Source: Thermoanaerobaculum sp. (GTDB lineage Bacteria > Acidobacteriota > Thermoanaerobaculia > Multivoradales > UBA5704). From it: a stretch of DNA of 64,000 nt. This document shows, piece after piece, positions 31,896-49,358 of the stretch (position 1 is the first letter of the stretch; every line of letters begins with the position of its first letter). The DNA lies in the NCBI GenBank assembly GCA_021154885.1, contig JAJKHS010000077.1, positions 124,001 through 188,000 on the forward strand, read 5' to 3'. The notes beneath the pieces were generated by a model. It made no database searches. It saw only the letters and a list, made by a program, of their open reading frames with translations, and was not told where the DNA came from. The translations under genes were made by a program, and so were the position numbers.

Positions 31896-32993
31896 GTGAG
31901 CCGGTCTGGTAGCGGAGCCCGACACGGGGCGCTCTCGGGGTGCCTCTGGTTCCTGCTCTGGACACTCGGCTTGCCGCTGGCGGCGCAGGGTCCGACACCG
32001 GGGCTCGCCCCGCAAACGATCCATCTCCGCGGCGGCGAGCGCCGGGACGTCTACATCAACCTCGGCGCCGACAACCGGCCGGACGTCGAGCTCCAGGCGC
32101 GGCTGAGCCGGGTTGGCGCATGGCCTGACATGAAACGCGTCCGCCTCGACATCGTCCGCAACGCCACGCAGGATCTCGGGACGGAAACCGTTCTCCACTA
32201 CGTCCCCGGGGGGCGCGTGCTCTGGTTGGAAGCTGCCGCCGACCGCTGCGCGCCCGCCGGGATCTACCACGCAACCGTCGACGTGTCGATCGTAGAACCT
32301 GGTCAGACCGCCGTCGTTAAGGCGCCTCCCATCTCTCTCAACATTGAGATCGCCGACAGTTGGGCCTGCGGAATAGGTCGCGCCCAACACATCCTCTTGC
32401 CGCTTCCCCTGGCGCTCGGTTTTTTCTTTCTTTTGACCTCCGTCACGCACAGCCGGCGTCTATCCATGGACCGTCTCGCCAAGCGGCTTCAGCACCTTAC
32501 GTGGAATGGTAGCGGCGAGCCAGGGATCACCAAGGACGAGGTCGACGTCCTCGGCAAGCTCGCCGAGAAATTGAGGTCCGTCGATCGGGTGAAGGTGTGG
32601 CTTGCCGCCAATCCCCTCCGTTTCGGCTGGCTGGCCTATGAAGAGACCGTCGAGATCATGTTGCGCGGCCCCAGCCTGGAGGGCCTCACCTTCACGGCGG
32701 TGGCGCCGCACTCCTGGGACGCGCCCGCCGAAGGTCATCTCTACGCCCGAGCTAAGACCGATGGAAGCGTTGACCTTCTTGGCGTTCCGGACCGCAACAA
32801 CAAGCTCTCCGGGCTTGATCTGTACGGACCGCCTCGCGACTTCGGATCCGGGAGGGAGGTCCGTAACCTGGACCTGGTCTACTCCTCTGCCGCAAAGCTA
32901 CCTGGCCGGCCGGCAGGGTGGAGGCTTCTCAAAGTGCAGATCCGAAAGAGCCCGGGAGCGGCTTCGGGGCTCGCGGCGGAGACGCGGCGATGA
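31896..32993 (+). CDS. Membrane protein sharing a cytosolic module with the VWA protein
   Basis: A 365-residue protein beginning with GTG eight bases after AGGAGGAGG. A signal peptide (GCLWFLLWTLGLPLAAQ) leads to a periplasmic beta domain (about 30-160), then one membrane helix (HILLPLPLALGFFFLLTSV, near 167-185) and a cytosolic C-terminus. That tail contains WLAANPLRFGWLAYEETVEI, closely paralleling WLRSNPLRFGLPGGRYHETV in the VWA protein two genes on; both are preceded by similar LAKRLQHLTW / LATKLKPLVW stretches. The shared module probably binds the same partner, perhaps the tubulin-like protein. No named family was recognised. First gene of the operon; it overlaps the next gene by four bases. 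Confidence 0.65.
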   Translation: MSRSGSGARHGALSGCLWFLLWTLGLPLAAQGPTPGLAPQTIHLRGGERRDVYINLGADNRPDVELQARLSRVGAWPDMKRVRLDIVRNATQDLGTETVLHYVPGGRVLWLEAAADRCAPAGIYHATVDVSIVEPGQTAVVKAPPISLNIEIADSWACGIGRAQHILLPLPLALGFFFLLTSVTHSRRLSMDRLAKRLQHLTWNGSGEPGITKDEVDVLGKLAEKLRSVDRVKVWLAANPLRFGWLAYEETVEIMLRGPSLEGLTFTAVAPHSWDAPAEGHLYARAKTDGSVDLLGVPDRNNKLSGLDLYGPPRDFGSGREVRNLDLVYSSAAKLPGRPAGWRLLKVQIRKSPGAASGLAAETRR

Positions 32994-33760
32994 GATTCCT
33001 GGAAGGAGTCCTGATGAACCTCCTCGCCAGTATTCTGCTCTGGCTGGGAGGGCTCTTGCTGGGCAAAACGTTCGACTTCGGGGTTAGTGATGTCAAGCCC
33101 GTTGAGATCCCTTGCTGTCAGATCATCAACACCTATGTCAACCAACCCCCCCAGTCGAGATTTGACCCTCCCGATCCGCCACCCAAGACGGACACTCAGG
33201 TCTTGAGTGCTCTCCAGTGTACGGATCACCAGGGTCACAAGGGCGCTTTCCGAGCCATGGTGTTCCTCGACAGCTACAACTGGGTGCGCGGCAGCACTGA
33301 GCTCGTCGAGTTCAACGGCCAGGTCATTCCCTACTTCCTCACGGTTCTCCGCCAGGAGCCAGTGCAGAAGATTCTCGCGGGAGCGGAGGAGATCGTTGCC
33401 GTGGGAACCGCCTCTTGTGAATCGCCGCTGGGACCCCTGGTCGAGAACCACCGGGCGGAGGAGCGCGCCGAACAGCTCGTCCGCTGGATCGAGGAATCCC
33501 GCGCTCAGTTGCCCAGCCGCCCCGGTCCGATGCGGAACGTGATTCCTCTCAACCTTGGAGGCTTCACCAAGGAGTGTCCGAAGTCCGAGGCGGCCGAGAC
33601 CTCTCGGCAAAGACGCCTCGTCCTGATCGCGGTCACCGACAGGCAGAAGGACCTCGACCTCGAGTCGTGCCTCCAGGAGAGGATGAAAGAAGATTCCTCC
33701 CTCAAGTTCCTGACCGACAACTATTCGAGATTCGATCTGGACGCCGGCTGGAAGATCTGA
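32990..33760 (+). CDS. Membrane-anchored OmpA-like protein
   Basis: A 256-residue protein with one N-terminal membrane helix (LMNLLASILLWLGGLLLGKT). The C-terminal ~150 residues have the order of an OmpA/MotB-like domain: EEIVAVGTASCESPLGPL as the conserved strand and turn, RAEERAEQLVRWIEESRAQL as the RA..L helix, and QRRLVLIAVTDRQKDLDLES as the final strand. OmpA-like domains often bind peptidoglycan, but here the match is distant. It starts in an ATGA overlap with the previous gene and ends directly against the VWA gene. OmpA-family proteins were among the partners reported for one tubulin-like family, which supports the assignment. Confidence 0.6.
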   Translation: MRFLEGVLMNLLASILLWLGGLLLGKTFDFGVSDVKPVEIPCCQIINTYVNQPPQSRFDPPDPPPKTDTQVLSALQCTDHQGHKGAFRAMVFLDSYNWVRGSTELVEFNGQVIPYFLTVLRQEPVQKILAGAEEIVAVGTASCESPLGPLVENHRAEERAEQLVRWIEESRAQLPSRPGPMRNVIPLNLGGFTKECPKSEAAETSRQRRLVLIAVTDRQKDLDLESCLQERMKEDSSLKFLTDNYSRFDLDAGWKI

Positions 33761-36562
33761 ATGAGAACCGGAACCTCAAGATCCGATCGCCAGCGACGCC
33801 CCCTCCTATGGAGGGCCATCGCCGTAGCATGTCTCTTGTCCACCCTTCTGGCGGTCTCGGCCGCCGCACAGTCGACGGCCCGTTCCGCCGAGGTGCGCTC
33901 GGCGCAGTACGTCCTCATCCTCGATGACTCTGGGAGCATGAAGACCACCGACCCGGACCGCCTCAGCCTCTTCGCCGCGCGTTCGCTGGTCAGCATGCTC
34001 GACGACCGCGACGAGGTGTCAGTGGTGCGAATGAACGGCCCTCGCGACGGGGCGCCGCCACCGCCGATCGAACCGCTGCGGAAGAACCGCGCTCAGATCG
34101 ACCAGCTCCTGAATCTCCAAGGGGGGATCGCCGGGTACAGCGCGAAATACACGCCGTGCCGGTCCTCGTTCATGGCGGTCCGGCGGCTGCTCGACGCGGC
34201 GTACCAGCCGGGAGTCTCTCAGGTCGTCATGCTGCTGACCGACGGGCAGTGCGAACCCGCAGAGGAAGAGTTATCGAGTGAGGATTTCCTGAGCGGCCTG
34301 CGCTCCCACGACCAGGGGGCCTTCCAGTTCTACCTGCTGCGCTTCCGCGGCATGCGGTACTCGCCGGCGCTGGTACGCTTGGCCGAGCGCACCGGGGGGA
34401 AAGCGATGGAGGCCGACCCGCGAGATCCGGCATCGATCCTCCAGACCTTCGCCACCGCACTGTCCCGCTCCCAGGGGTACGAAGCTTATCTCCTCTCGCC
34501 GCGCGAGGCCCACCTGGCGGCACACCGCGGCGCCGAACGGGTCCGCCTGCTCGCCATTGCCCCCGACGCCGGCCCCGGCCTCTCATTTTCCGTCCGTAGC
34601 CCGCGGGGTAGTGCCCCGCAGATGCTTGACACTCCCCGCGCCGGCACGCATCAGTACGGCGCCAACGGGAGGGTCTTCCGCTTCGCCGCGCTCGACTACC
34701 GGCCGGACGCCGAGCCGGTCGAGGTGGACGTGCCGGGTGGCGGAGAGCGCTGGAAAGTGGTGGCGCTGCCGGAGTATCGCCTCGCGGTGCGCCGGGCTGT
34801 TCAAGCGGGGAGCTGCGATCGTCCTGGAGCGGAGGTCCAGAGCGCCGAGGTGGGAGCGTCTGTCTGCATGATCGTCGAGCTGGTCAACGCGAGCGGCCAG
34901 GTAGTGGGCGGCGAGGTCACGGGAGGCGACCTGACCGCCCGGGTGCAGATCCGCCGCGCCGACCTGCCGGGCCAGCCGCCGGAGGATCTCGCCGCGAACC
35001 CACTCGCCGCCGGCCAAGCGCGGTTCGGCCTGCCGCGGAGCCACCTGGAGAAGGGGGACTACGAGCTCCAGCCGCTGGTCTCCCTGAGCCTCTCCTCCGG
35101 CGAAGCGATCAAGCTGCGCGGCACACCGGCGTCGCTCGAGGTCTCCTCGGTAGAGATCCATCCCCAACCCGCTCGTCTCGCCTTCGGCAGTTTGCGCCCC
35201 GGCGATCTCGCGCAGAGCCCATTCCGCCTCGCGGGCAACTTCCCGAAGGCGTCCGGGCACCTCGAGCTGGGCGACCGCCCCGATCTGCCGGCCTGCGTGA
35301 CCGCCGAGCTGAGCGGCGTCCTGGAGGGCAAGCCCCAGCCGATCACGCCGGGTCAGGGGTACAACCTCGTGCTGCGCGTCTCTCCCTACTGTGGCCCGCA
35401 GCCGATCGACCGCCCGGTCAACACGGTCCTCCGCCTGGTGCTCGCGGGCGAAGGCGGCCGCCAGCTTCCCGTTATCGAGCTGCCGTTGACCTTCCGGCTG
35501 GACTACCGCATCGACGCCCCCAAGGAGCTGACCGTCAAGGTCCGCGGCGGGCAGGTGGAAGACGTGCCGGTAACGGTGGGCGGCAACTTCCAGAAGCAGG
35601 TGTCGCTGCGCGCCGTGGTGGCCGGCCCGAAAGAGGCCGAGGCGTGGCCGGAGGGCCGCGGCGACCTGGTCCTCGGGTTCGCCGGCGAGGGTTCTGCGAA
35701 GGTGCTGCGCGACAAAGAGGGCGATCCGCTCCTCAATCACGACTTCTCCGCCGGTCCGGGGGCGGCTCCGCTACGGCTGCGCGCCCTCCCCGGCCGCTGC
35801 TGCGCCGCGGGCTCCTTCGCGACCCGCCTGGGGCTCGCCCCCGCCGGCAATCAGCCTCTGCCGCCAGGAGCCCGGCCGCCGGAGCCGGTCGTCGTGCCGG
35901 TGCGCGTCGAGGTCGAGCCGGCCGGCTTCTGGGCCTGCTATGGACCGCGCATCCTCGCGGCGCTGGCCGCCCTGCTGTTGCTCCTGCTCGTCCTGTACTG
36001 CGTGAACATGTTTCGTCACAGCATCTTCCTCAAGCCCGATGCGCTGGCGACGAAGCTCAAGCCCCTGGTGTGGACCGAATACGGCGACGCGGTGGAGCTC
36101 GACAAATCGAAGGGCGAGGTGACGCGGCTGGTGCGCCAGGCCCTGCCGCTGCACCGCCGGGCCAGCGCCTGGCTGCGCTCCAACCCTTTGCGCTTCGGGC
36201 TGCCCGGAGGGCGTTACCACGAGACGGTGGAGATGCTGTTGCAGCCGAGCCGCGACGTGGCCCGCTCTCAGGTCCTCCTGGTGGCCGAAGGCGACGTGCA
36301 GGCGCGGGCGGAGAGCGAGCCGGAGAATTTCCGTCGCCGGCTCTTCGCGATCGCTGCCGGGAAGGTCCTGTTCCTGGCCGTGCCGGATGCGCAGGGCCGC
36401 ATCGGCACCCTGGTCTGGCAGAACGGCTTCCTGCCTTCGGAGTTCGAGGGGGAGCCCGCCCGGCTGCGCGCGGTCAAGCTGCACAGGGCAAAGCTGCTGC
36501 GTTCCCTCGAAGCTTGGGAGACTCATGAGGAAGGCAAAGCCGCCGGCTGGCAGATCGGTTAG
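33761..36562 (+). CDS. Membrane-anchored VWA-domain protein
   Basis: A 933-residue protein. A signal peptide (VACLLSTLLAVSAAAQ) is followed by a VWA domain (about 45-230) with an intact metal-ion-dependent adhesion site, VLILDDSGSM (Asp55, Ser57, Ser59). Residues about 230-720 are several beta-rich domains, probably Ig-like. A membrane helix (RILAALAALLLLLLVLYCVN, near 729-748) leads to a cytosolic tail of about 180 residues that repeats the WLRSNPLRFG...ETVEML module of the first operon gene. The layout places the VWA domain outside and the shared module inside. VWA proteins of this kind are predicted partners of the tubulin-like GTPase. It begins directly after the OmpA-like stop. Confidence 0.85.
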   Translation: MRTGTSRSDRQRRPLLWRAIAVACLLSTLLAVSAAAQSTARSAEVRSAQYVLILDDSGSMKTTDPDRLSLFAARSLVSMLDDRDEVSVVRMNGPRDGAPPPPIEPLRKNRAQIDQLLNLQGGIAGYSAKYTPCRSSFMAVRRLLDAAYQPGVSQVVMLLTDGQCEPAEEELSSEDFLSGLRSHDQGAFQFYLLRFRGMRYSPALVRLAERTGGKAMEADPRDPASILQTFATALSRSQGYEAYLLSPREAHLAAHRGAERVRLLAIAPDAGPGLSFSVRSPRGSAPQMLDTPRAGTHQYGANGRVFRFAALDYRPDAEPVEVDVPGGGERWKVVALPEYRLAVRRAVQAGSCDRPGAEVQSAEVGASVCMIVELVNASGQVVGGEVTGGDLTARVQIRRADLPGQPPEDLAANPLAAGQARFGLPRSHLEKGDYELQPLVSLSLSSGEAIKLRGTPASLEVSSVEIHPQPARLAFGSLRPGDLAQSPFRLAGNFPKASGHLELGDRPDLPACVTAELSGVLEGKPQPITPGQGYNLVLRVSPYCGPQPIDRPVNTVLRLVLAGEGGRQLPVIELPLTFRLDYRIDAPKELTVKVRGGQVEDVPVTVGGNFQKQVSLRAVVAGPKEAEAWPEGRGDLVLGFAGEGSAKVLRDKEGDPLLNHDFSAGPGAAPLRLRALPGRCCAAGSFATRLGLAPAGNQPLPPGARPPEPVVVPVRVEVEPAGFWACYGPRILAALAALLLLLLVLYCVNMFRHSIFLKPDALATKLKPLVWTEYGDAVELDKSKGEVTRLVRQALPLHRRASAWLRSNPLRFGLPGGRYHETVEMLLQPSRDVARSQVLLVAEGDVQARAESEPENFRRRLFAIAAGKVLFLAVPDAQGRIGTLVWQNGFLPSEFEGEPARLRAVKLHRAKLLRSLEAWETHEEGKAAGWQIG

Positions 36563-36611: not shown

Positions 36612-39600
36612 ATGCCGAGACATCAGAAGGTGGTCATCGAGGAGATGTTGACCAAGCCGAGCGCGGTCTGCCCGACGCTCTTCGTCGGTCTGGGTGGCTG
36701 CGGCTGCCGCCTGGTGAGCCGGGTCGCGCGCCACCTGCAGCGGCGCCCCGACTACGAGGAGCGCTACAAGGCGCTCGTCAAGTTCGCCCTGGTCGACACC
36801 AACGTCAACGAGCTGGAAGGCTTCCGGGAGATGGCGGACAGCACGTTCCTCATCAGCGACTTCGAGAAGGAGGAGTACGCCGATCTCGCCTCCGGGAAGC
36901 TCTTCCTGGAAGCCGACCCCTATTTCACGCAGTGGGTGCCGCAGAACTATCGGTTCCGCGCTGGCGACACGGCCGGCGCCGGGCAGATCCGCATCGAGTC
37001 GCGGCTCGGCGTCTTCTATCAGATGAAGCACAAGGACTTCGTGCCGAAGTTCCGGAGGCTCCTGGAGGATCTCAAGTCGCACGAGTTGGGGCACCGCCGC
37101 CTGGACAGTCAGGAGATCCGCATCGTCATCTGCTACTCGGTGGCCGGCGGCACCGGCTCGGGCTGCCATCTGCCGATCGCCTACCTGCTGCGCGACCTGG
37201 CCAGCGAGCTCGGTAAGCCGCGTCTGATCGGCGTCGCCGTGCAGCCGGCGGTCTTCGAGGACAAAACTGGCATCAACCGCGACGGCACGTTCGCCAACGC
37301 CTATGCCGCGCTCAAGGAGACCGAGTACCTGATGAAGCTGGGCGCTCCCGATTCGCGCTTCTTCCCCGAGGAGGGGCTCGCCTTTCATTACGACCCGTCG
37401 GACGTCTCCAAACGGATTGTGCGCCAGCCGCCATTCGAGTTCGTCTACATCGTGGACAAGCCGCAATCGTTCACCGTGCCCGATCCAGTCGAGGCCGCAG
37501 CGGATGGCCTCTATCTTCAGTTCTTCTCCCCGCTCTACTCGTATCAGGCCTCCGACTATGACAACTTCACGCAGCACCAGCGCTTCCTGGTGCCCCACGA
37601 CTTCGAGGCCAAGGGCATTATCGGCTTCACCACATTCTATGGCTCCTATGGAGCTGCGGTGCTCCTCGTGCCTGTCGACGGCCTGGTCGACTTCTGCTCG
37701 CAGTCGGCGGCGCTGTCGCTGATGCGGGCGAGTTTCCTGCGCTCGATCCCTGGCGATGCGATCTATGCGTCGCTGCGCAACGTGCCAGAGCCGTTCTACG
37801 AGGTGGCGCTCGGCAACGAGAAGAATGAAAAGCCGGTCCAGGTAGCGGATTTCCCGAAGAAGGAGAAGGACCAGCGCGAGAGGCTGATCGATCGCTTGTA
37901 CATGAAGCGGGTCCGCCTGCTGGCCGCCTGTGAGTTCGCGGACAATGAGCTGAAGCGCTTCTTCACCCTGTTCCGCCACGGCCACCGGGCGGGCGAGATC
38001 CCGCGATCGGATGGCACCTGGGAGCTCAAGCCGGAGAGGGTCAAGGAGGACCAGGAGCAGCTCGCGCGCAACGGCATGCGCCTTTCGATCGGCGCCATCG
38101 TCCTCCCGACGATCACGAGCGACAATCCCCAGGAGCTTCCCGGCCTGCTGCAGCAAGCCCGCAAGGCGATGGAGCTTCACGCCGAGGAGGACCAGCCGAC
38201 GGCGGCCGGCATTAACCGTGTCTACGACGCGCGGACCCGCGCCTCGGTGTGGCTGGACGAGTTCAAGAGCGTCGGGATGAGAATCCTCAAGAACGGCTAC
38301 AAGAGCGGGACTCTCAGCCATCCCGGGATGGACGCCCTGGTGGAGCTGTCGTTCCTCAACGACGAAGCCGGGGAGGTGGACCTGGCGGCCAAACGCTATG
38401 CCGTGCTGTCCATTCTCGAACGGGTACGCTGGGACGTCACGCCCCCGGAGCGCACCGCTGACTTCGACCTGGGCGAGCACAAGGATACCGACAAGCTCAA
38501 TCCCAAAGAGGTCCCGGCGCTCCTCGAGTCGCTGCAGAGCCAGGCCATCGAGCGGGCGATGCAGATCGTCAAACAGCAGTTCATCGAGTCGCTGGGGGAC
38601 CTGCGCACCAACCTCGACAAGTTCGCCATCACGCAGCGCGAGCTCGAAAAGGGCTTCGACCAGTTGGAGGCCGAGCAACTGAACCGCCTGCGCAAGCTGC
38701 GCGAGGACGGCGGCAAGAGCTCGTCGGCCAACCAGTACGTGCTCGACGCCGAGGCGCTGCAGATCGAGGACGGCCGGCGCATGTGGGACTTTTACTTCGA
38801 GGACAAGATCGCCGAGCTGCCTGATCTCTCGCTCAGCAACCGCGAGATCCAGGTGCTGCTGGGCGACACGGTCACCGCCATGAGCGTGCGCCGCGGCGGC
38901 GCCACCAGCGCCGACCTGGACAAGCTCTTCACCGCACTGCGTGAGCATGTCGAGAAGTTCCTCAGTGCCTGGATCGGCGGCGATCCCCACTCGCCGGACC
39001 GCGAGCGGCGCGACGGTCTGACGCTGTCCGACGCGTTGGAGCTCGAAGTGGTCTACCGCGCCCTCTACCGCAGCAACAGCCCGCAGGTGGAGGCTGGCGG
39101 CGACAAGGAGATCCGCGAGCTGATCGCCACCTATCGCAACCCGACAAATGAGGAGAAGCTTGACCTCAAAGACGAAAGGCACAGCGACTACCTGCGCGAC
39201 AAGATCAAGCGGCTGGTCAAGGAGAAGGCGTCGCTCCTCTGCGTCTACGAGGAAGGACGCGACCAGCACGGCGGCGTGCGGCCGGACAACGTCTTCGTCG
39301 CCGCCATCGACGAGAACTTCAAGAACAGCACGATCGAAGAGGCGATCCGCGGCGCCGATCCCAACCTCACCTGGGTGACGACGGGATGGACCAACCCCAA
39401 GGAGATCATCTTCTACCGCGCGGTCCTCAACGTCCCGCTCTACGTCTTCGGCCGGATGAAGGAGATGAAGGCGGAGTACGAGCGCTTCAAGGCGCTCGCC
39501 AAGCGGCCCAAGGTGCTGCACATCGATCATAACTGGGAGGACATGCTCCCGGATCTCGATCCCGACAGCGCGCAGGAGAACCACCGCCAGCAGCTCCTGC

Positions 39601-40424
39601 GGAACCACGTGATCAACTTCGCGGCGCTGATGACCACACGGCGTCCCGACGGCGGACCGGCCTTCGTCGTCCGCCGCGGTGGCAAGTACTGCCTCTCGGA
39701 TCCGGACTGGGACGGCCTGAGCGACGACGGGGAGTTTGGTGACGACGGCCTGACCCGCCTGGGGGAAACCCTGGCCGACTCGATCCAGCGGCTGCCCGAA
39801 GTGCTGGAGTCGGAAAAGGTCACCTATCTCTCCTACCAGCAGATGCTGCGCGCCGTGCGCGAGGGGCTGGCGCCGGAGGTGCTCGCTGCGGTCGTCGAGC
39901 TGCCGTTCCGCTGGCGCAGTAACCACGACGAATTGCGCAACAAGTACGGTCCCAACCGGACGCCGGTGCAGCAGGAGAAGCTCAAGGACTACGCCGACGC
40001 CTATCAGCGCCTGCGCGAGGCGTTGGAGAAGCTCTACGATCGGCTGAGCAACGTCAGCGTCGAGCAGCGGACGCTCGGCGAGGATCTGGGCGCCAACGCG
40101 GCCAACCTGACGGCCGAGGAGGCGGAGGAGAACCTCGCCCAGAGCATCAAGATCCTTGAGACGTTCTGCGAGGTGTGGAAGGCGCTGGAGAACCCGGATC
40201 AACCGGGAGCCGTGGCGAAGAGCTTCCAGCGGCTGTTTCGTCCTTTGCCGGAGGACAAGCTCAATCGCCTGCTGGAAAAGCTGCGTAGCGGTCCGACACG
40301 GCCGGCCGGAGGAGTGCGGCGAGGGGCGCCGCCGGCGGGAGGGAGCGTCGCGGTTGGCTCCGGGATCGCCGCGGTCGTGCCGGGGAACGGACAGACTCCG
40401 GGCGACAGCCCGGCGGGGAACTGA
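36612..40424 (+). CDS. Large tubulin/FtsZ-like GTPase
   Basis: A 1270-residue protein with an N-terminal tubulin-superfamily domain (about 20-430). The first loop reads LFVGLGGCGCRLVSRVAR (residues 23-40), a DTN follows in KFALVDTNVNE (near 57-67), and the signature GTP-binding loop is YSVAGGTGSGCHLP with GGTGSG at 179-184. A catalytic-loop-like acidic segment follows (AVFEDKTGINRDGTFANAY). The remaining ~840 residues are helical and unassigned, making it several times longer than FtsZ. No membrane helix is seen. It belongs to the 'tubulin-like' families predicted to act in membrane remodelling with VWA and OmpA-like partners. GTPase activity is inferred from motifs only. Confidence 0.85.
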   Translation: MPRHQKVVIEEMLTKPSAVCPTLFVGLGGCGCRLVSRVARHLQRRPDYEERYKALVKFALVDTNVNELEGFREMADSTFLISDFEKEEYADLASGKLFLEADPYFTQWVPQNYRFRAGDTAGAGQIRIESRLGVFYQMKHKDFVPKFRRLLEDLKSHELGHRRLDSQEIRIVICYSVAGGTGSGCHLPIAYLLRDLASELGKPRLIGVAVQPAVFEDKTGINRDGTFANAYAALKETEYLMKLGAPDSRFFPEEGLAFHYDPSDVSKRIVRQPPFEFVYIVDKPQSFTVPDPVEAAADGLYLQFFSPLYSYQASDYDNFTQHQRFLVPHDFEAKGIIGFTTFYGSYGAAVLLVPVDGLVDFCSQSAALSLMRASFLRSIPGDAIYASLRNVPEPFYEVALGNEKNEKPVQVADFPKKEKDQRERLIDRLYMKRVRLLAACEFADNELKRFFTLFRHGHRAGEIPRSDGTWELKPERVKEDQEQLARNGMRLSIGAIVLPTITSDNPQELPGLLQQARKAMELHAEEDQPTAAGINRVYDARTRASVWLDEFKSVGMRILKNGYKSGTLSHPGMDALVELSFLNDEAGEVDLAAKRYAVLSILERVRWDVTPPERTADFDLGEHKDTDKLNPKEVPALLESLQSQAIERAMQIVKQQFIESLGDLRTNLDKFAITQRELEKGFDQLEAEQLNRLRKLREDGGKSSSANQYVLDAEALQIEDGRRMWDFYFEDKIAELPDLSLSNREIQVLLGDTVTAMSVRRGGATSADLDKLFTALREHVEKFLSAWIGGDPHSPDRERRDGLTLSDALELEVVYRALYRSNSPQVEAGGDKEIRELIATYRNPTNEEKLDLKDERHSDYLRDKIKRLVKEKASLLCVYEEGRDQHGGVRPDNVFVAAIDENFKNSTIEEAIRGADPNLTWVTTGWTNPKEIIFYRAVLNVPLYVFGRMKEMKAEYERFKALAKRPKVLHIDHNWEDMLPDLDPDSAQENHRQQLLRNHVINFAALMTTRRPDGGPAFVVRRGGKYCLSDPDWDGLSDDGEFGDDGLTRLGETLADSIQRLPEVLESEKVTYLSYQQMLRAVREGLAPEVLAAVVELPFRWRSNHDELRNKYGPNRTPVQQEKLKDYADAYQRLREALEKLYDRLSNVSVEQRTLGEDLGANAANLTAEEAEENLAQSIKILETFCEVWKALENPDQPGAVAKSFQRLFRPLPEDKLNRLLEKLRSGPTRPAGGVRRGAPPAGGSVAVGSGIAAVVPGNGQTPGDSPAGN

Positions 40425-40426
40425 GC

Positions 40427-43400
40427 TTGTCCCGAGTGTTCCCGGCCCCGGTGATCGTTGTCGGCGTCGGACGCTTCGGCTTGGCGACGCTGGAGCGCCT
40501 CGGCGACGACTGGTCCGGTCTCCGGCTCTCCGGGGCGGACGTCTCGATCGGCAACCTGCGCCTCCTGGCGGTGCGCTCGGCTGGGGCGGCGAACGGCTGG
40601 CGCCGTTTCGAAGAGGACGCCGTCCGCATCGCCGGTCATCTGGGGGACAGCGACCTGCCGTCCCTGGCACTCAACCTCGCGATCGTCCGTTCTCTCGGCC
40701 TCGTCCGCTATCGCGACGGTTGCTATCAGGTCGCCCTGCCGCGCGACGCGGGCGTCGTAGAGGTGGAGATCGAGGCCGCGCCGGGAGCGGACGGCGGCGA
40801 GGAGACCCCGCCGGAGAAGCAGTCGCGGCGCCTGCGCTACTTCGAGTGGCTGCGGCTCGACCCGGATCCGATCGTCGCGGCGGAGCGGCTGCATCACCTT
40901 GCCCAACGCCTGCAGGAGGTCGATCTCTTCATCACGCCGCTGCTCAACCGGGTACGGCAGGGGCACAGCCCGCATACGCTGCTAGCCTGCATCGACCGCT
41001 GCCGCTCTCTCCTCGCAGGGCGGGATCCTGCACCCTGGGACTGGGGGAACCCGGCGAACATCGACCCGCCGGATGGGGAGAGTGTGCCGGTCTCGACTCT
41101 CGTCGCTCCGCAGGAGAAGGAGGAGATGCGCCAGGCTGCGCGTTTCCTCGAAAAGGTGATGGAGCCTCCGCTCGCCGGCTGGAACGAGTGGCTGAGCGGC
41201 GACGAGGAAGCGCCACCAGTGATCAAGAAGTTGGAACCGTTCGTACGGTGCGCCGGCGACCTGTCGTCGCCGCTGGATCCCGCCGAGCTCCTCGGCCGCG
41301 AATGGGAGGTCACTGGCTGGGCGAGCCAGCAGGGACCCTCAGCCGACGATATCTTCATCCCTCTGACTCCCCACCCGTTCCAGTTGGGCCTCTTCGACCT
41401 GGACAATCGGGAGGGCCTGCCGGAGACGACCGTCGAGCTCCTGAGAGGCCGGCTCGGGGATTTTGGCCGGTTCCTGCACGGCGGCCTCGTCCGCCTCTGG
41501 GTGGACCTCCAGCGAGAGAGGGTTGGAGACGTCAACAGCAACATCCTGGAAGAGGCGCGGCAGCGTGACGAGCTGACCGACGCGTTGCGGCAGTCCCTCG
41601 AGGTGCTCGGCGAGATTGTCGTGCACCCGCTCAAGGACGCGCTCCACGAGGTGCCACGCCGGGCCTCCAACTCGGCGGCGGAGACGGATCTGCCCGGCGA
41701 GCCCAGCCGTTTCCTGCGCGGGCTGGAGATCGACGATCCCCGGGAAGAGTCTCCCCGCCAGTGGCTCGAGCGGCGGCTGGCGCACCTTGGTTTCGCAGCG
41801 ACCGCGGAGCCCGGGGAGGAAGGCGCGCCGGCAGGCTCCGCCGAGACCAGCTCTCCGCCGCGGCACGCTCCGCTGTTCGCGGACGTCTGCATCCCGGCCG
41901 GACACGATGGTATGGAAGACAGGACCAAGGAGCCCTTCTCGCCCTTGCGCGAGGCGCTCAACCGGCAGGTCCGCGAGATGTACGGCTTCCGCTTCCTCAC
42001 CCGCTACCGCCAGCGGCCGACCCGGCAGCCGCCACGGCTCACGGTGTTCGTGATCGGCGATATGAGCGAAGCGTTCACCCGCGAAGCCATGCGGCACGTG
42101 CTGCGCGAGATGCATGCTGAGCTTCTGCGCGCCTTCACTCCCATCTTCGAGTCCTACCGGGTGGGGTTCGATCGCTGCCTGTGCGTCACCCCGATCCTCT
42201 GGATGCCCCATCCTGCCGATCCTTTCCAAGGGGAGGACCTCGCGGTCAGCCGCTGCGAGGAGGCGGCGATCATCGACGCCGTCCACGGCATCCGCCGCTG
42301 GGTGGAGTGCGTCCTTCCCGCCGGTCGGCGCAGCATCTCCCAGATCTTCGTCAACAGCCGGGTCACGGATACATCCACCTTGAGCTTGGCCGATGCCCTG
42401 CGCCAGACGCGCGACTTCCTCTCCTTCCAGATCCGCAACGACCTGAGCCAGAACCCGTGGCTTCGCCAGACGTCCATGAGCGCCGGCGGCACCGACCTCT
42501 TTTCCTCGTTCTCCTGCTACGAGATCGACTTTCCGGCCCTGCGCAGCCGCGAATACCTGGCCAACCGCCTGGCGCGTGAGTGCCTGGCCGAGCTCAAGCA
42601 GGGCGAGCATGTGCGCATCGAGCCGCCGGAACCGCTCGCTCCGCCGGCGCTGGACAAGCTCACCGATCAGGCCCGCCAAGTGCTCGGGGGGGTTACCCGG
42701 CAGGCCGGGGACAGCCTCGCGCAGCGGGTCGAGAACCGCTGCCAACTCGAGCCCGGCACTCCCTCACGCGAGATCCTGAAGGCGTTCGACGAGCGCTTCG
42801 AGACCGAGCTGCGGCGCGACGTGTGGGCGACCTGGAGCGAGCTGACAGGCCGCCTGGGACGGGTCGACGCGCTGGTGGACGAGCTGCGTCTCGCAACCTC
42901 GCGCCTGGTGGGCAAAGCGGTCGAGCGGGTGCAGTCCTACAGCGACCATCTGGTCGCGGACTACGCCGGAGCCGGCGGTCTCAAGGCGGCGCAGGCCGCC
43001 TTCCATCAACTGCGGATAGCTACCCAGGAGACCTTCCAGGAGCAGGAGAAGCTGCGCCGCAATCGAGAGGCCCTGTGCGGCCGCCACACGATCCCCGTAC
43101 TGGAACAGCTCAGCCGCGCCCGCCGCGCCGTCCTGACGGCGGCGGAGCGCAAGCCGGATCTCTCTCCCATCCACTTGGGCCTCGCCGTCTGGGCCCTGCT
43201 CAGCCTCGTCCTCGGTGCTCCCGTGGCCCAGGCCATCTCCTACTTCTTCGAGCTCCACCTGCGGCCCAACCTCCTGGAGTGGCTCCTCGGCCCGGGTGGC
43301 GGGATCACCGGCGGCCTGCTCCTGTGGGGCGCGGCGTGGGCTCTGCTGCGCTGGTTCGTGCGCCGGCGCTTCCGCTCCCTGACCCACGCCATCCATGCGA

Positions 43401-44410
43401 TGGCAGAGGAGGTGCGCGCTTTCTTCTGGGGCACCGGCGCTCACCCGGAGAGCGAAGGTCGGCCTTCGGTCCGCTCGTTCCTCGAGAGCCGGCTCGAGCT
43501 GACCGGCGCCGTGGCCACCCGCGGCTTTGCCGCCACCGTCTTCGAGCGCGCTCTTGCCGACTCACAGCTCGCCGACCGCTTGGCCCGCAGCCTCGACGTG
43601 CAGGCCGCGCTCCTGGGACGCAAGAGCGAAGAGCTGGGCGTGCGCGCCACGATGGGGCACGGCAGCGAAAGACGCGAGGATCTGCGCAGTCTGTTTGAGG
43701 GCCGCAGCCGGACTCCCGCCGACCGCCTGATCGATCCCGAGATGCTGCACGACTACTTCCAACGCCGCATCGGCGACGATCTGATCCGTGAAGTCCCTGG
43801 TCTGATCAAGAGCGGGGGAGGGTTCTTCGCTTGGCGCGAGCAGGCCTGCCTGACCGACAGCGAGCGTATCCTCGAATACTGCCGGGCTCACTTCGACGAC
43901 CTGGTCCGCGAGCCGATCTCGAACCAGCACTTTTTCGCCGGCAAGGTCGGGCCGCGCCTCGTGCAGTTCGTCTCCCGTGTCTACCCCAATCTTGGCTTCG
44001 GCGCCGGCTTCAAGGGCTATGAGGGACTGGACCCCGACAACGTCCGCCTGCTCGCCGACGCGACGCTGGTCATCCACAGCGGATTGGAGGACCTCTTCCG
44101 GGAGACCCGGCAAGCACTGCGCAAGGACTGGCCTATGACCGAGACCCTGGAGCTGCACACCGTCGACGTACGGCCCAATGCCGCTTACATGCTGTCGCTC
44201 GTGCAGGGGATCCGGGTCACCAGCCTGCGCAACCTTCGTCGTTTCGAGTCATTCCACAACCGTCCCAACATGCCCGACGACCGTATGTTCCCCCTGTCTC
44301 AGGAGCCTCAGGCCCAGCGCTCGCCGGTCAATCCGCTGACCGGCTATGGGACCATCGGAAGCGACCTCGCCGCCACTGTCTTGGCTCCACCTGACTCCTC
44401 CCGATCATGA
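40427..44410 (+). CDS. Large membrane protein resembling a degenerate tubulin-like paralogue
   Basis: A 1327-residue protein. Its start VIVVGVGRFGLATLERL (residues 9-25) then LRLLAVRSAG parallels VGLGGCGCRLVSRV then VKFALVDTN in the preceding tubulin-like protein, and RCLCVTPILWMPHPADPFQG with RCEEAAIIDAVHGIRRWVEC parallels a later section. The GGTGSG loop is missing, so nucleotide binding may be lost. Two membrane helices lie near residues 917-940 and 957-975 (LAVWALLSLVLGAPVAQAIS; GGLLLWGAAWALLRWF), and long helical stretches fill the rest. Start is uncertain (TTG two bases after the previous stop, or a GTG nine bases later). It could be a membrane-tethering partner of the GTPase. No named family was recognised; the paralogy is inference. 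Confidence 0.6.
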   Translation: MSRVFPAPVIVVGVGRFGLATLERLGDDWSGLRLSGADVSIGNLRLLAVRSAGAANGWRRFEEDAVRIAGHLGDSDLPSLALNLAIVRSLGLVRYRDGCYQVALPRDAGVVEVEIEAAPGADGGEETPPEKQSRRLRYFEWLRLDPDPIVAAERLHHLAQRLQEVDLFITPLLNRVRQGHSPHTLLACIDRCRSLLAGRDPAPWDWGNPANIDPPDGESVPVSTLVAPQEKEEMRQAARFLEKVMEPPLAGWNEWLSGDEEAPPVIKKLEPFVRCAGDLSSPLDPAELLGREWEVTGWASQQGPSADDIFIPLTPHPFQLGLFDLDNREGLPETTVELLRGRLGDFGRFLHGGLVRLWVDLQRERVGDVNSNILEEARQRDELTDALRQSLEVLGEIVVHPLKDALHEVPRRASNSAAETDLPGEPSRFLRGLEIDDPREESPRQWLERRLAHLGFAATAEPGEEGAPAGSAETSSPPRHAPLFADVCIPAGHDGMEDRTKEPFSPLREALNRQVREMYGFRFLTRYRQRPTRQPPRLTVFVIGDMSEAFTREAMRHVLREMHAELLRAFTPIFESYRVGFDRCLCVTPILWMPHPADPFQGEDLAVSRCEEAAIIDAVHGIRRWVECVLPAGRRSISQIFVNSRVTDTSTLSLADALRQTRDFLSFQIRNDLSQNPWLRQTSMSAGGTDLFSSFSCYEIDFPALRSREYLANRLARECLAELKQGEHVRIEPPEPLAPPALDKLTDQARQVLGGVTRQAGDSLAQRVENRCQLEPGTPSREILKAFDERFETELRRDVWATWSELTGRLGRVDALVDELRLATSRLVGKAVERVQSYSDHLVADYAGAGGLKAAQAAFHQLRIATQETFQEQEKLRRNREALCGRHTIPVLEQLSRARRAVLTAAERKPDLSPIHLGLAVWALLSLVLGAPVAQAISYFFELHLRPNLLEWLLGPGGGITGGLLLWGAAWALLRWFVRRRFRSLTHAIHAMAEEVRAFFWGTGAHPESEGRPSVRSFLESRLELTGAVATRGFAATVFERALADSQLADRLARSLDVQAALLGRKSEELGVRATMGHGSERREDLRSLFEGRSRTPADRLIDPEMLHDYFQRRIGDDLIREVPGLIKSGGGFFAWREQACLTDSERILEYCRAHFDDLVREPISNQHFFAGKVGPRLVQFVSRVYPNLGFGAGFKGYEGLDPDNVRLLADATLVIHSGLEDLFRETRQALRKDWPMTETLELHTVDVRPNAAYMLSLVQGIRVTSLRNLRRFESFHNRPNMPDDRMFPLSQEPQAQRSPVNPLTGYGTIGSDLAATVLAPPDSSRS

Positions 44411-47400
44411 CTAGCAACGACCTGCTGGATCTGTTGCGCTCCCTCGTCACCTTGCCGGCCGCTGCCTTCTGGCCGGCGGTGGCCTGGACGCTCGATCGGC
44501 TGCAGGGGATCGGGAGCTTCTGGGGAGGGTTGCTCGCCCTCGCCCTGGTTGCCGCGTCTGCGGGTCTCGCGGTCCTCTGGCAGCGGCGCCTGGTGCGGCT
44601 GATCGACGCCACACCAGCGGCTCCTCTCGGCTTCTTCCGTTTCCTGAAGCTCGAGCTCCTCTACTCCCCGGTGGGAGTGCCTCTCTGGCTGTTCCGCCTG
44701 CCGTGGATGTTGATCCGCGCCCTGGCGGCAGGGGTGCGGTCGGTGACGGGCAAGCTCCGCCGCAAGCGGTCGGACCCGGCCGCTGCTCTGACAGCCGGCG
44801 CGACCGCAGAGGCGCCAGCCGCCAAAGTGAGCACGCCGCCGTCCCCGGCGCCCCCCCTGCTCGTGGCGAGCCTGGGGCCCGGATTCCTGCTCGCCGGTCT
44901 CGGCACGGCAGCGCTCTATGGGGCGGCGCTTCTCGCCGAGCCCCTCCTGCGCCGGAGGCTCGATCTGTCGCCCGGCCTCTCCGCCTGGCAGTACCTCTTC
45001 CTGGGGCGACGGCCGGAGCTTGCCTGGTACCTGCCGCTGAGCCGCTTCCCATTCCTGGGCGCCCTCCTCGTGCTGCTTCTGTGGCTGGCGATCTGGTCGC
45101 TGGTGGGAATCGCCGTCCGGCTCTTCCTGCAGGCGCACCTGGGGCGCAACCTGGCGGCCGATCGCGAAGACGAAGAGGTGCTCCCCTTCTGGCGGCGGTG
45201 GAGCGGCGTGCCGTTCCTGGCCAGCGTGGCGCCCTCGTTTCGTGAGTGGGCCGCGTGGCTGGCGGCCGTGGCCTTTCCGCTCCTGGTCTGGGCCTGGCTG
45301 TCGCTGGGAGGAGATCCGTACCGCCTGCCGCCGTCGCAGTTTTCCGTCGCCCTCCTCCTCTGGACCTCCTGGTCCCTCCATCTCGTATTGCGCGGCGAGG
45401 AGCGCCTGACGCAGGCGCCGGCCGCGGAGCTTCCGGCTGCAGCCGGCCAGGGAGCGGGATGGCCGGACGTCCTGGCTTATCTCGCCAACCGCTGGGGCGT
45501 CGCGCCGCCGCCGCCGCGGGAGACCCGTCCGGTGGAGCCGCGGGAGAGGTCGGAAGCCGACCCGCGCACGGCCGGTGTCCTTTCACCCCTGGTCATCGAG
45601 CTCCTCCCTGGGCCGCGCCCGCAGCACCTGACTCCCATGCAACGCGCCGTGCTGACCCGGCTCGCTCTCCAGGGCTACGTCCACGTCGATCCGCCGATCG
45701 CCCTGCAGGAGCTCACCCTGGGGGAGACCCTGGAAGTGTCTGCGGACCGTAGCGGACAGCGCAGCCGCAACCTGATCGTCCTGGCGCCGGAGGGGGCGGG
45801 CAAGTCGACCCTCGCCCTCCTCGCGGCGGCGAACCATGCCCTCGTGCACACCCGCGGCAGCCTGATCGTGGTGCGTAGCGAGTCCGCCGCCGAAAAACTG
45901 GCCGAACGCTTTCGCCACGCGATCGAGCCGTCGACGCTGCGCTGGAACGTCCGCGTGCGGCGGCCGGGCAGCGACCTGATGACCGATCTCGCCCAGGGGA
46001 TCATCCCGGATGTCGTCTTGTGCTGCCTGCACGATCTGGTGACCACGGTGCTCGACCGGGCCGATACCTTCGCGCCGCTCCTCAGCAACCTCGGTCTCGT
46101 CATCGTCGACGACGTGGAATCCTTCGCCGGACCGGTCGAGGTGCACGCCCAACTCGCCTTCCGGCGTCTGACGCTGCGGCTGCGCGAGCTGATCGGTGTG
46201 CACACGCTGGGAGAGAAGAGCGCGCCGCAGGTCCTGATGCTGGGCGTCGAGAGCATGCACCGCATGCCCGAGTGGGTGCGCAGCCTCTGCGGCGTCGACG
46301 CGGTGGTGCGCAACTTCTCGCGCTCGGGGCGCGAGACCGCCGAGCGCGAAAGGGCCGAGCTGACGGCGAGCGGGACCGCCCTGATCAAGCCGGAACCGCA
46401 GTTGGAGCCAGGCGGCGATCCAGGCGCGGGAGTCCCGGGCTCGGCTGGGCTGGGCCCGGGACAGCTCTCCTATCACCTGCAGGACTTTCAGCATGCGGGT
46501 GAGCCCCTGACTCTGGCCGACCTGGTCGACGCCTGCGAGCAACTCGCCGTCCCCTGGCACTACCGGCTGTGTGGCGACGGCCGGCGCGATCTCGGGCGCG
46601 GGCCGCTCCTGCTGCGGGAAGAGCCGGTGAGCTACCGCGAGTCGCCGGAAGAAGCCTGCGTCGTCCTGCTCGAAGGCAACTGGAGCGAAGTACACCGCGA
46701 GCGCGAGCGGTTGCGCCGGGCCGGTGCGCGTTTCCGGCGCGCGGCGGGGCAGCCTCCGGCCGGAGAGCCGCTCGCCACCGAGCCGATCGCCGTCATCTCG
46801 GTCGTGGAGCCGGGTCTCGAAGAGGTCTTCGACGGCCCCGTGGGCTCGGCCGACCTGGCCGCCAGGCTGGCCTCCCTGCCATGGCCCTTCGTCCGCCCGC
46901 CCACTGGCCTCACCGTCGAGCCCCACCTGTCGGCGGACCTGGTGCAGCACTGGCTCGAAGTTGAGGAGGTCGTCGGCGTCTTCGGCGGCATGTGCGTGCC
47001 GCGTCTGCGCCAGCTGGCGGACCAGCGCCTCCTGCTCTGCGAGCGGCGGACCGACGTCGACGAGCGGTCCAACGAATACGTCGAGAACGTCTTCGTGCGC
47101 GCCCTGTCCGCCGCCGTGCGCCCGGAGGAAGATGCCGCGGGAGGCGGTGCCGATCTGCTCCCTCCCAAAGTGGCGCAGGTCGAGCTCGCCGTCCCGCGCA
47201 CGGTGGCCGTGCGCGACCGGACCCGCCTAGCGAAATTGGCAATGACGGCCGCTGAAACCGCTCACGTGCACTACTATCCAGGGCGCATCTTCCAGGATGC
47301 GCGTGGCATCTTCATCGCGCTGGCGCGCGCGGGTGACGAGGACGCCTCCCCCGGCGCCCTGCCGGCGGGAGACGTGCTCGTCGAGCCCCTGTTGACCGAC

Positions 47401-48216
47401 GAGGTCTCGTCACCGCGGCGGCTGTTCCTCCTCACTCCATTGGCGAGCACGGAGAGCGCCCCGGAGATGGTCCAGGCTGCGGGAGGGAGCTTCCCGTCTC
47501 CCGACCGGGTGCTCCTCGGTCGCTATCCGTTCGACGTCGCCCTCGAGCCGATCGCGGTGCGGATGCGGCCCATCGCCACCTACCGGCTCGACGTCCTGCG
47601 CCGGGATGTGCGCCAGCGGACCCTGCTCGAGTCATCGGTGCGGGCGCGCTACGAGAAGCTCGCCTTCGAGACCGTCGCCTTAGCTCTCGTCCCCAATCCC
47701 GACGCTGGTGTTCCCGGGGTGGCAGAAGGGGGATATTCCGGGCCGGACGAGGCGGTCACGGGGCCCCTCCTCACCTTCGAGGCCGCCCGGCTGCTGGCGG
47801 CCGTGCTGCGCGCTCTCCTCCCCGTGATGTACCGCGGCGCCCGGGAGGGACTCCAGGTGGCGCTGCGCCTCGCCGCGCCGGAGACGGCGCCCCCCGAGAC
47901 CGCGCTCCTGCCCAGCGAAGCCCTCTACCTGTTCGATGCCGATCCCGGGGGGAACGGCATGGCCAGGGCGATCCTCCGCGACGGCCTCGAGCTCCTGCTC
48001 CGCCTCTGTCGCCTGGCGCTCGAACGCGCTCCCTCCCTCGACCTCTTGCGTACCCTTTTCGACGAGTGGGGCGACGAGGCCGAGGTGCTCGCCGAGAGCC
48101 GCGGTGAAGCCGCGTCCGCAGCGGACTGGCAGCGGGCGCAAGGCGTTGCTCTGGCTTGGCTCAACAGCCGTCTCCGTTCCGAGGACGACCTCTCCCGTCG
48201 GGTGCGCCGGTCATGA
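44407..48216 (+). CDS. Polytopic membrane protein with an SF2 MrfA/Hrq1-like ATPase domain
   Basis: A 1269-residue protein. Residues 1-335 hold six or so membrane helices (GGLLALALVAASAGLAVLWQ, FLGALLVLLLWLAIWSLVGI and others). A P-loop NTPase follows: LTPMQRAVL resembles a Q-motif, VLAPEGAGKSTLALL is Walker A (about residues 459-470) and GLVIVDDVESFAGPVEVHAQ is motif II (about 562-580), with the 'gap then RRL' pattern of MrfA/Hrq1 helicases. The C-terminal domain has VHYYPGRIFQDARGIFIAL and LFDADPGGNGMARAIL, close to the MrfA C-terminal (DUF1998) signatures. Helicase activity is not assured: the second motor domain is divergent. A membrane-anchored helicase-like ATPase is unusual. ATGA overlaps link it to both neighbours. 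Confidence 0.72.
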   Translation: MTSNDLLDLLRSLVTLPAAAFWPAVAWTLDRLQGIGSFWGGLLALALVAASAGLAVLWQRRLVRLIDATPAAPLGFFRFLKLELLYSPVGVPLWLFRLPWMLIRALAAGVRSVTGKLRRKRSDPAAALTAGATAEAPAAKVSTPPSPAPPLLVASLGPGFLLAGLGTAALYGAALLAEPLLRRRLDLSPGLSAWQYLFLGRRPELAWYLPLSRFPFLGALLVLLLWLAIWSLVGIAVRLFLQAHLGRNLAADREDEEVLPFWRRWSGVPFLASVAPSFREWAAWLAAVAFPLLVWAWLSLGGDPYRLPPSQFSVALLLWTSWSLHLVLRGEERLTQAPAAELPAAAGQGAGWPDVLAYLANRWGVAPPPPRETRPVEPRERSEADPRTAGVLSPLVIELLPGPRPQHLTPMQRAVLTRLALQGYVHVDPPIALQELTLGETLEVSADRSGQRSRNLIVLAPEGAGKSTLALLAAANHALVHTRGSLIVVRSESAAEKLAERFRHAIEPSTLRWNVRVRRPGSDLMTDLAQGIIPDVVLCCLHDLVTTVLDRADTFAPLLSNLGLVIVDDVESFAGPVEVHAQLAFRRLTLRLRELIGVHTLGEKSAPQVLMLGVESMHRMPEWVRSLCGVDAVVRNFSRSGRETAERERAELTASGTALIKPEPQLEPGGDPGAGVPGSAGLGPGQLSYHLQDFQHAGEPLTLADLVDACEQLAVPWHYRLCGDGRRDLGRGPLLLREEPVSYRESPEEACVVLLEGNWSEVHRERERLRRAGARFRRAAGQPPAGEPLATEPIAVISVVEPGLEEVFDGPVGSADLAARLASLPWPFVRPPTGLTVEPHLSADLVQHWLEVEEVVGVFGGMCVPRLRQLADQRLLLCERRTDVDERSNEYVENVFVRALSAAVRPEEDAAGGGADLLPPKVAQVELAVPRTVAVRDRTRLAKLAMTAAETAHVHYYPGRIFQDARGIFIALARAGDEDASPGALPAGDVLVEPLLTDEVSSPRRLFLLTPLASTESAPEMVQAAGGSFPSPDRVLLGRYPFDVALEPIAVRMRPIATYRLDVLRRDVRQRTLLESSVRARYEKLAFETVALALVPNPDAGVPGVAEGGYSGPDEAVTGPLLTFEAARLLAAVLRALLPVMYRGAREGLQVALRLAAPETAPPETALLPSEALYLFDADPGGNGMARAILRDGLELLLRLCRLALERAPSLDLLRTLFDEWGDEAEVLAESRGEAASAADWQRAQGVALAWLNSRLRSEDDLSRRVRRS

Positions 48217-49358
48217 ACCGCCAAGTCATCTTCTGTCTCCTTCTCCTGATTTCTCTCGGCTTTGTGGGGGCGCTCGCCGGCGGCTGCCAGTCGAGGGCTC
48301 GCGAGCCGCGCCAACTCGCTTTCCCGACCTTTCAGGCCGCGGCGCCATTTCCGGAGTTCCAGAGCGCCGCGGCGATTCCAGAGAGGGCTGAAGGGTCTGC
48401 TCCCAGCCAGTTCACACGCGCTTTGAACGAACAGCCGTCGGCCGCGACGCCCGCTGCGCCGGAAAGTCAGAGCGTGCCCCTCGGCAGCTCGATGACCGCT
48501 CAGATCCCCCCCAGGGAGAAGGACTGGACCTGGTCGCTCGCGGACGGGGCCACCCTCATCGCGCACGCGCCCAACGGCGGCCGTCCGGGGGCTCTGGTTT
48601 ATGTCGAGCCGTTCTCTGCCGACATCCACAACCACCCTTCGACAGAGCATCTCCGTTTCCAGATGACCGTCGATCCCGAGCTCGCCGAGAATTACCTGCG
48701 GCTCACCGCCGCCGACGTGGTCCTGGCCGGCCGGGCCGCCGCCATGCCTCCACTGTCGCGCAGCGAAGCCGCGCGTTGGGCGCAACTGCTCAAGACCCGC
48801 ACCCAGGGGCGCGGTCTCGGCTTTCGGCCGACCCGCAGTTCGTTTACCGGTTGGCGCTGGGTGGGCCGGAACGGGCACGAGGTGACCGTCCGTTGCAGCC
48901 GCTACCTCGGTGTGTGGGCGCAGCCGCGGCCCTGGCCCGCTCCGGTCGCCGCCGCCCTGGCGCGGCTACGGGGTGAGCCCGAAAAGCCGGTCTCCCCACC
49001 CGGGGCGCCAGCGCCCCCCTTTGCGCCAGCCGCGGTACCCGCCGTCGCGGGGGTCTCCTCCTACCTGATTCTGGGCAGCGCCACCGATCGGGATGAGGAG
49101 ACAGGAGTGCATTTTGCCATCCTCTGCGTCCGGGAGCCGCGCTGCCTCGTCTACAAGGAGCTCACGCAGTTCCTCGAATCGATCCAGATTGCCGAGGGCC
49201 CGCAGTTGGACCGTCTGCGCTCGGCGCCACCCGTCCCGTTCCAAAAGTTGGTTCAGGAAACGGGCCTGGAAATCTTATCTGGCTCCGAGTTGCCGGACTT
49301 GTCGAAACGCAATGGAAAACCTGGGACAGGCACGGCGCCCGAGCAGGTGCCTCGTTGA
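48213..49358 (+). CDS. Lipoprotein, last gene of the tubulin-like operon
   Basis: A 381-residue protein with a signal peptide ending in GALAGGCQSRA, an imperfect but plausible lipobox with Cys25 as the lipidated residue. A low-complexity stretch rich in A, P and E covers about residues 30-95. The rest is mixed, with WTWSLADGATLIAHAPNGGR and SSYLILGSATDRDEETGVHF suggesting beta-rich domains. No family is recognised. It starts in the ATGA overlap with the ATPase gene, so it is certainly coupled to the operon. As a lipoprotein it could be the outer-face component that connects the complex to the envelope. Confidence 0.65.
   Translation: MNRQVIFCLLLLISLGFVGALAGGCQSRAREPRQLAFPTFQAAAPFPEFQSAAAIPERAEGSAPSQFTRALNEQPSAATPAAPESQSVPLGSSMTAQIPPREKDWTWSLADGATLIAHAPNGGRPGALVYVEPFSADIHNHPSTEHLRFQMTVDPELAENYLRLTAADVVLAGRAAAMPPLSRSEAARWAQLLKTRTQGRGLGFRPTRSSFTGWRWVGRNGHEVTVRCSRYLGVWAQPRPWPAPVAAALARLRGEPEKPVSPPGAPAPPFAPAAVPAVAGVSSYLILGSATDRDEETGVHFAILCVREPRCLVYKELTQFLESIQIAEGPQLDRLRSAPPVPFQKLVQETGLEILSGSELPDLSKRNGKPGTGTAPEQVPR

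Follow-up and report, generated by a model that had tools for sequence, protein, structure and literature searches.

The operon and its membrane-anchored MrfA-like protein

The window analysed here is a 64,000-nucleotide stretch of the Thermoanaerobaculum sp. assembly GCA_021154885.1 (contig JAJKHS010000077.1, positions 124,001 to 188,000); coordinates below are those of the window unless a locus or contig identifier accompanies them. An open reading frame at 44407..48216 (+) encodes a membrane-anchored MrfA-like protein of 1269 residues, the subject of this report, and stands in an operon with a tubulin-like GTPase of the FtsZl1 (Tubulin_2) type. The operon consists of seven consecutive genes on the + strand, starting at 31725, 32990, 33761, 36612, 40427, 44407 (the subject) and 48213. 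Gene order from the third gene onward, namely a vWA-like protein (33761..36562), the Tubulin_2 GTPase (36612..40424), a protein called p2 here (p1327; 40427..44410), the subject and a putative lipoprotein (48213..49358), was found again in genome G009. ATGA overlaps flank the subject gene on both sides, joining its start to the end of p2 and its stop to the start of the lipoprotein gene. The GTPase, of 1270 residues, matches PF13809 at 1.1e-45 with its GGTGSG box intact, bearing out the tubulin-like operon partner proposed in an earlier sequence-only reading of this DNA.

The open reading frame has an ATG start and is a genuine gene, since a full-length ortholog in identical gene order occurs in another family of the same order (L005:16061-19735, 42-43% identical). 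Residues 1-330 (44407..45396, +) form an N-terminal membrane domain. A strict hydropathy scan of residues 1-300 gave four strong hydrophobic segments in the subject and six in the ortholog, so that the multi-pass domain expected from the sequence-only reading stands, while its count of about six helices is plausible rather than exact. A RecA1-like domain follows at residues ~441-640 (45727..46326, +), delimited by Pfam DEAD, Foldseek, VIA and windowed identity; the DEAD match passes its cut-off (6.4e-7, 29.7 bits against a 26-bit cut-off) and is also found in the ortholog (1.7e-8). Within this domain lie a Walker A motif, APEGAGKST (residues 460-468; 45784..45810, +; APEGSGKTT in the ortholog), a motif II, VIVDDVES, in which DDVE replaces DExH (residues 565-572; 46099..46122, +; VVDDVES in the ortholog), and an RRL that aligns with the RRL following motif II of MrfA (residues 586-588; 46162..46170, +). 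These are the motifs picked out in the sequence-only reading, and all of them are kept in the ortholog. Farther along are a short YPGRIF block, which aligns in the sister-branch proteins described below as well (residues 957-962; 47275..47292, +), and a remnant of MZB, the MrfA Zn-binding domain, with PGGNG present and the four cysteines absent (residues 1131-1201; 47797..48009, +). Identity to the ortholog is highest in the RecA1 part (52.5%), followed by the RecA2-like (44.4%), C-terminal (36.5%) and membrane (35.0%) parts. No NCBIfam model matched the protein.

A sister branch in the same operon position

A sister operon, new here, with the order vWA, Tubulin_2, p2, membrane protein, occurs in two further genomes of Acidobacteriota and in that of a gammaproteobacterium symbiotic with a nematode. 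In Thermoanaerobaculia bacterium Co_bin.310 (G023, JAUIJL010000016.1) a membrane protein of ~978 residues follows vWA-like, Tubulin_2 and p2-like genes; its C-terminus contains ACPCRSELGCERC, and MZB lies above the cut-off in the genome search, where the subject itself falls under it (0.021). A 35% identical protein adjoins a p2-like gene in Acidobacteria bacterium PL23a_bin.88 (G253, JANQFM010000894.1), where protein and tubulin are on separate contigs and the tubulin stops at a contig edge. The third, 31% identical, came from a collection scan and belongs to the Candidatus Thiosymbion ectosymbiont of Robbea hypermnestra (Gammaproteobacteria), again after Tubulin_2 and p2-like genes and a gene that is vWA-like by appearance, whose product matched no Pfam family. 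Three, five and five segments were counted by hydropathy in the first 180 residues of the three sister proteins, and hmmscan placed MZB above its cut-off in two of the three.

The kinship of the two branches rests on profiles, on the shared operon position and on the tubulin tree. Alignment of the window pair with the sister pair gave an hhalign E-value of 5.6e-5 over 146 columns, and the sister hidden Markov model (HMM) matched the G009 protein at 1.9e-6; direct BLASTP of the window protein against a sister protein was not significant (0.14). In G023 a DO-GTPase2 gene (L066:10652-11500, 5.7e-12) lies downstream of the gene for the sister-branch protein and, as far as its sequence tells, connects this tubulin clade with the GTPase-centric systems described by Kaur et al.; a candidate GAP1 in the same genome matched no Pfam family. 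The tubulin operon of the Thiosymbion genome also includes a protein with a transglutaminase core and a KY-type Ig-like domain (L122:2086-3393; Pfam 6.3e-15 and 1.6e-20).

Helicase motifs kept and lost

Motifs were scored by exact patterns, which a degenerate motif could escape, in two proteins of the window branch, three of the sister branch and eight MrfA controls from genomes of the phylum. The controls had been filtered for Walker A, DExH and the zinc cysteines (all eight fetched passed), so their 8/8 for these three features is partly by choice. Motifs Ia, Ib, V and VI were each absent from all five proteins and present in 8/8 controls. Motif III, also found in 8/8 controls, was missing from both window-branch proteins, and the single match among the three sister proteins was a stray one that lay outside their motor domain. 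No protein of either branch has a DExH motif II (0/5; DELH in 8/8 controls); the window branch has DDVE instead (2/2). Walker A is retained in the window branch (GAGKS and GSGKT, 2/2) and in none of the three sister proteins, all of which have DDCGQxE in its place. For the zinc cysteines the pattern is reversed (0/2 window branch, 3/3 sister branch, 8/8 controls), and PGGxG is found in one of the two window-branch proteins, 3/3 sister proteins and 8/8 controls. The two branches have therefore lost opposite halves of the ancestral equipment. The second motor domain, described as divergent in the sequence-only reading, indeed lacks canonical motifs V and VI.

Relation to MrfA

Profile comparison with the eight MrfA sequences gave E-values of 6e-6 over 152 columns for the window pair (the RecA1 part) and 1.3e-15 over 558 columns for the sister pair; a global hhalign of the window pair against MrfA found no significant match (E 0.48). 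Against solved structures, a profile of the three sister proteins matched Bacillus subtilis MrfA (6znp) at 9e-10 in two collinear stretches, one at motif II and one in the zinc domain, and the window-branch profile alone gave chance matches to c-Fos and nothing else.

Structure comparison was confined to the RecA1 part, both predicted models being poor, with a mean predicted local distance difference test score (pLDDT) of 34.2 for the window protein (~43-64 in RecA1 blocks) and 43.7 for the sister protein. Foldseek ranked MrfA (6znq) first for the window model (E 1.8e-5, 180 columns, root-mean-square deviation (rmsd) 3.2), and chains of three MrfA entries filled four of the top eight rows. For the sister model no match reached E <= 0.001, and MrfA ranked 15th (E 0.041). 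There is little doubt that the RecA1 domain of the subject is of helicase superfamily 2 (SF2), and on the balance of evidence it is MrfA-type. Taking Pfam DEAD, hhalign, the sister profile and Foldseek together, homology of the subject to the MrfA/YprA (DUF1998) family, already suspected from the letters of the sequence, can be accepted with high confidence, the MZB match of the window protein itself being sub-threshold. Neither a non-helicase NTPase fold nor an absence of DUF1998-like similarity in HMM searches was found.

Association with one clade of FtsZl1 tubulins

We surveyed 25 Tubulin_2 neighbourhoods, among them those of the window, G009 and the Thiosymbion symbiont and one with two tubulin genes, many of the 25 being clipped by contig ends, and searched the neighbouring open reading frames with hmmsearch --max. 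The subject's family was on the tubulin's own contig in 4 of the 25, and in a fifth case (G253) on a different contig. A tree of 21 tubulin domains united the five tubulins that have a subject-type protein in a single clade (support 100/99), with the window pair and the sister trio as separate groups inside it (100/100 each). The search for this tree found 26 rows, from which the duplicates L024, L025 and L027 and the short L019 and L021 were dropped; L030 had no row. An MrfA-profile match near the tubulin of G132 proved unrelated to the subject; its sequence has the usual motifs and is presumably RecG.

Both branches are rare. Of 396 phylum genomes, 5 had any match to the window type (short in 3) and 2 a full-length protein; the full-length count was 2 of 148 for the class (any match in 3) and 2 of 98 for relatives (any match in 4). 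Each count includes the window's own genome, and neither of two genomes searched from the same genus had the protein. For the sister type, 2 of the 396 phylum genomes had a full-length protein and 68 any match, nearly all of these being short and most of them covering the zinc-domain part; in the class to which Thiosymbion belongs it was full length in 1 of 229 genomes (any match in 8). A collection scan with the window-branch alignment produced 155 pattern matches, none of them a relative. Searches of plasmids and viral contigs likewise gave no relative, and carriage by viruses or plasmids was set aside. Tubulin_2 was detected in 28 of the 396 phylum genomes (23 above the cut-off). The window genome has two more such genes on contig C126 (59031-60038 and 67463-68473) with a protein that is vWA-like by appearance between them, and no helicase-derived gene was found in their neighbourhood.

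A proposed remaking of a helicase as a membrane partner of a tubulin

We propose that an offshoot of the MrfA/YprA (DUF1998) SF2 helicases fused with a multi-pass membrane domain, and that the resulting protein became the constant partner of one FtsZl1 (Tubulin_2) clade. It would no longer translocate on nucleic acid, because most of the helicase motifs are gone; judged from motif content, this loss is very probable. The protein would reside in the inner membrane as a scaffold that anchors the tubulin-like GTPase there, together with p2 and the vWA-like protein. In the window branch the surviving P-loop and Mg-site aspartate might in addition serve as an ATP-binding switch, an optional element of the proposal, with slow or no hydrolysis expected because the catalytic glutamate of motif II is an aspartate, a replacement that slows hydrolysis in P-loop enzymes. 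In the sister branch the P-loop is gone and the zinc domain is retained. Given these opposite losses in the same operon place, a function common to both branches could need neither ATP-driven translocation nor zinc. It is from what is established, namely the homology, the hydrophobic segments, the operon, the motif losses and the single clade, that we infer a scaffold role, contact with the tubulin and switch behaviour. We put the chance of a scaffold or switch role at about even, and regard the reading as a whole, in which a protein of MrfA descent serves an FtsZl1 tubulin machine as a membrane scaffold or switch and does not translocate, as evenly balanced too. Somewhat more tentatively, an SF2 helicase may have been domesticated in one recruitment to be a membrane part reserved for a tubulin-like machine; the opposite losses thereafter would then show that shape and binding surfaces suffice.

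Comparison with known systems places the subject between several of them. With MrfA/YprA (B. subtilis MrfA, PDB 6znp/6znq/6zns) it shares the RecA1 fold, the order Walker A, motif II, RRL and the PGGxG of MZB, and the sister branch also retains the zinc cysteines; unlike MrfA, the subject's family has an N-terminal membrane domain and has lost motifs Ia, Ib, III, V, VI and DExH, the window branch being without zinc cysteines and the sister branch without Walker A. Absence of the four-cysteine cluster is shared by the window branch with the YprA homolog of Dpd systems, a relative in which that cluster was lost (PMC12458937), while a membrane domain and a tubulin link, both seen here, are not given for it in the main text of that 2025 preprint, where the words 'transmembrane', 'tubulin' and 'vWA' do not occur. 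Makarova and Koonin (2010; PMC2875224) described systems of Tubulin_2, vWA, GTPase and OmpA proteins, for which they predicted membrane remodelling. The window operon resembles the FtsZl1-vWA systems of their main text in combining a Tubulin_2 GTPase, a candidate vWA protein with membrane segments and further membrane proteins, and differs from them in adding a helicase-derived membrane protein and in having no match to the OmpA family, which is frequent there though not universal. The word 'helicase' is absent from that main text, a search that did not extend to Additional file 6 with its associated families lacking names; the passages on FtsZl1 in PMC5898192 mention no helicase either. The GAP1-N2 GTPase-centric conflict systems (Kaur et al., 2020; PMC7159879) combine a tubulin with a membrane vWA protein, to which the candidate vWA protein of the window operon would correspond, and the DO-GTPase2 gene of G023 is a further likeness; unlike them, the window operon has no such GTPase among its proteins, and the passages of PMC7159879 on these systems describe no helicase-derived component. 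In the literature searched, which excluded supplements and so leaves an earlier notice possible, we found no description of a helicase-derived membrane protein paired with Tubulin_2.

Several observations weigh against the scaffold interpretation. Walker A is intact and RecA1 better conserved than the membrane part (52.5% against 35%), which suggests a continuing role for nucleotide in the window branch, something that a mere scaffold would not require. Pfam MZB, the DUF1998-type zinc domain, stays below its cut-off in the subject (0.076, 14.2 against 24.2 bits, residues 1131-1201). The second look with VIA ties MrfA 6znp (Z 16.8, 260 residues, rmsd 9.1) with the Ski2-type Brr2 (Z 17.1), and the poor models left the second RecA domain and the canopy unsupported by structure. 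Matches of the vWA-like partner to Pfam VWA (0.019) and VWA_2 (0.025) are both sub-threshold, and the source genomes of both branches are metagenome assemblies and one draft symbiont genome.

The main rival is a membrane-tethered nucleic-acid sensor of a conflict system, in which the MrfA-like canopy would bind invading or damaged DNA or RNA without translocation and trigger a tubulin/GTPase response. It takes this place because the YprA family is central to several defence systems, DISARM, Dpd and Druantia among them (as treated in the main text of PMC12458937), and because operons of tubulin, vWA and GTPase genes have been proposed as conflict systems (in the neighbourhoods discussed in PMC7159879); the DO-GTPase2 gene in the G023 sister operon (5.7e-12) and the patchy occurrence of the window type (2 of 148 class genomes) fit it too. 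We nevertheless consider it unlikely, as all five proteins lack Ia and Ib, the canonical motifs of nucleic-acid contact, the PADLOC models reach at best 0.037 among the seven operon proteins, the tubulin is the only GTPase found among the window operon proteins scanned, and no effector nuclease was seen. A further rival is a membrane DNA anchor, a helicase-derived DNA holder coupling a chromosome or plasmid site to a tubulin-like filament for positioning in the manner of TubZ/TubR. The origin of the family in DNA binding, the adjoining tubulin gene and the TubZ precedent mentioned in the text of PMC2875224 speak for such an anchor, which the loss of canonical DNA-contact motifs and the plasmid and viral-contig searches without a relative make improbable.

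The sequence-only reading had suggested that a helicase-like engine anchored in the membrane could drive DNA, RNA or a protein. A true ATP-driven motor, its RecA2 motifs too diverged to be seen, would account for the intact Walker A (2/2), the retained Mg-site aspartate and the position of RecA1 as the best conserved region. Against it, canonical motifs Ia, Ib, III, V and VI are absent from both window-branch proteins and present in 8/8 MrfA controls, DExH and the zinc cysteines are missing as well (2/2), and sister proteins in the same operon slot are without Walker A (3/3), so that a role common to both branches cannot need ATP-driven movement. We regard a motor as very improbable. If the scaffold or switch interpretation is right, a helicase has been recast as a cytoskeletal membrane adaptor, and a motor family has here lost its motor and found new use in the membrane. 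FtsZl1 tubulins occur in many bacterial and archaeal lineages and have no tested function in the literature searched; a helicase-derived membrane protein kept with one of their clades offers a concrete biochemical handle on them, and the opposite losses amount to a natural experiment separating ATP binding from the zinc domain.

Other genes of the operon and its surroundings

The first operon gene (31725..32993, +) encodes a paralog of the C-terminal half of the vWA-like protein (BLASTP 6e-13, a single comparison). The second (32990..33760, +) encodes a small membrane protein with a weak homolog in G009, on the opposite strand and downstream of the operon there (BLASTP 2e-12, a single comparison); no Pfam family was above its cut-off, and membership in OmpA was not supported, neither the 32990 gene nor its G009 counterpart having a Pfam OmpA match. 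The vWA-like protein (+ strand) has an N-terminal signal or membrane segment and a C-terminal membrane segment by hydropathy, and its DDSGS, the metal-ion-dependent adhesion site (MIDAS), is intact in 2/2 of the window branch.

p2 (+) is conserved in L005, has a GxGxFG N-terminus and a C-terminal membrane segment by hydropathy, and matches no Pfam family; between window and sister branches its alignment spans 20 columns only. Its N-terminus resembles the tubulin glycine loop, but p2 is not claimed as a second tubulin because hhalign against tubulins gave 0.05-0.09. The putative lipoprotein gene (+) has an LAGGC lipobox by eye and is conserved in G009 (BLASTP 3e-8, a single comparison). No DO-GTPase or GAP1 gene was found among the scanned window operon proteins, and a known anti-phage defence module was set aside, the best PADLOC match among the seven proteins being 0.037.

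Upstream, on the opposite strand, a 754-residue protein is encoded at 29331-31598 (-). Its residues 44-303 match the NMT1_3 substrate-binding domain (8.4e-16), a TrkA_N match (1.9e-4) is sub-threshold, and hydrophobic segments can be made out by eye; the whole resembles a fusion of a periplasmic receptor with an RCK-type potassium channel.

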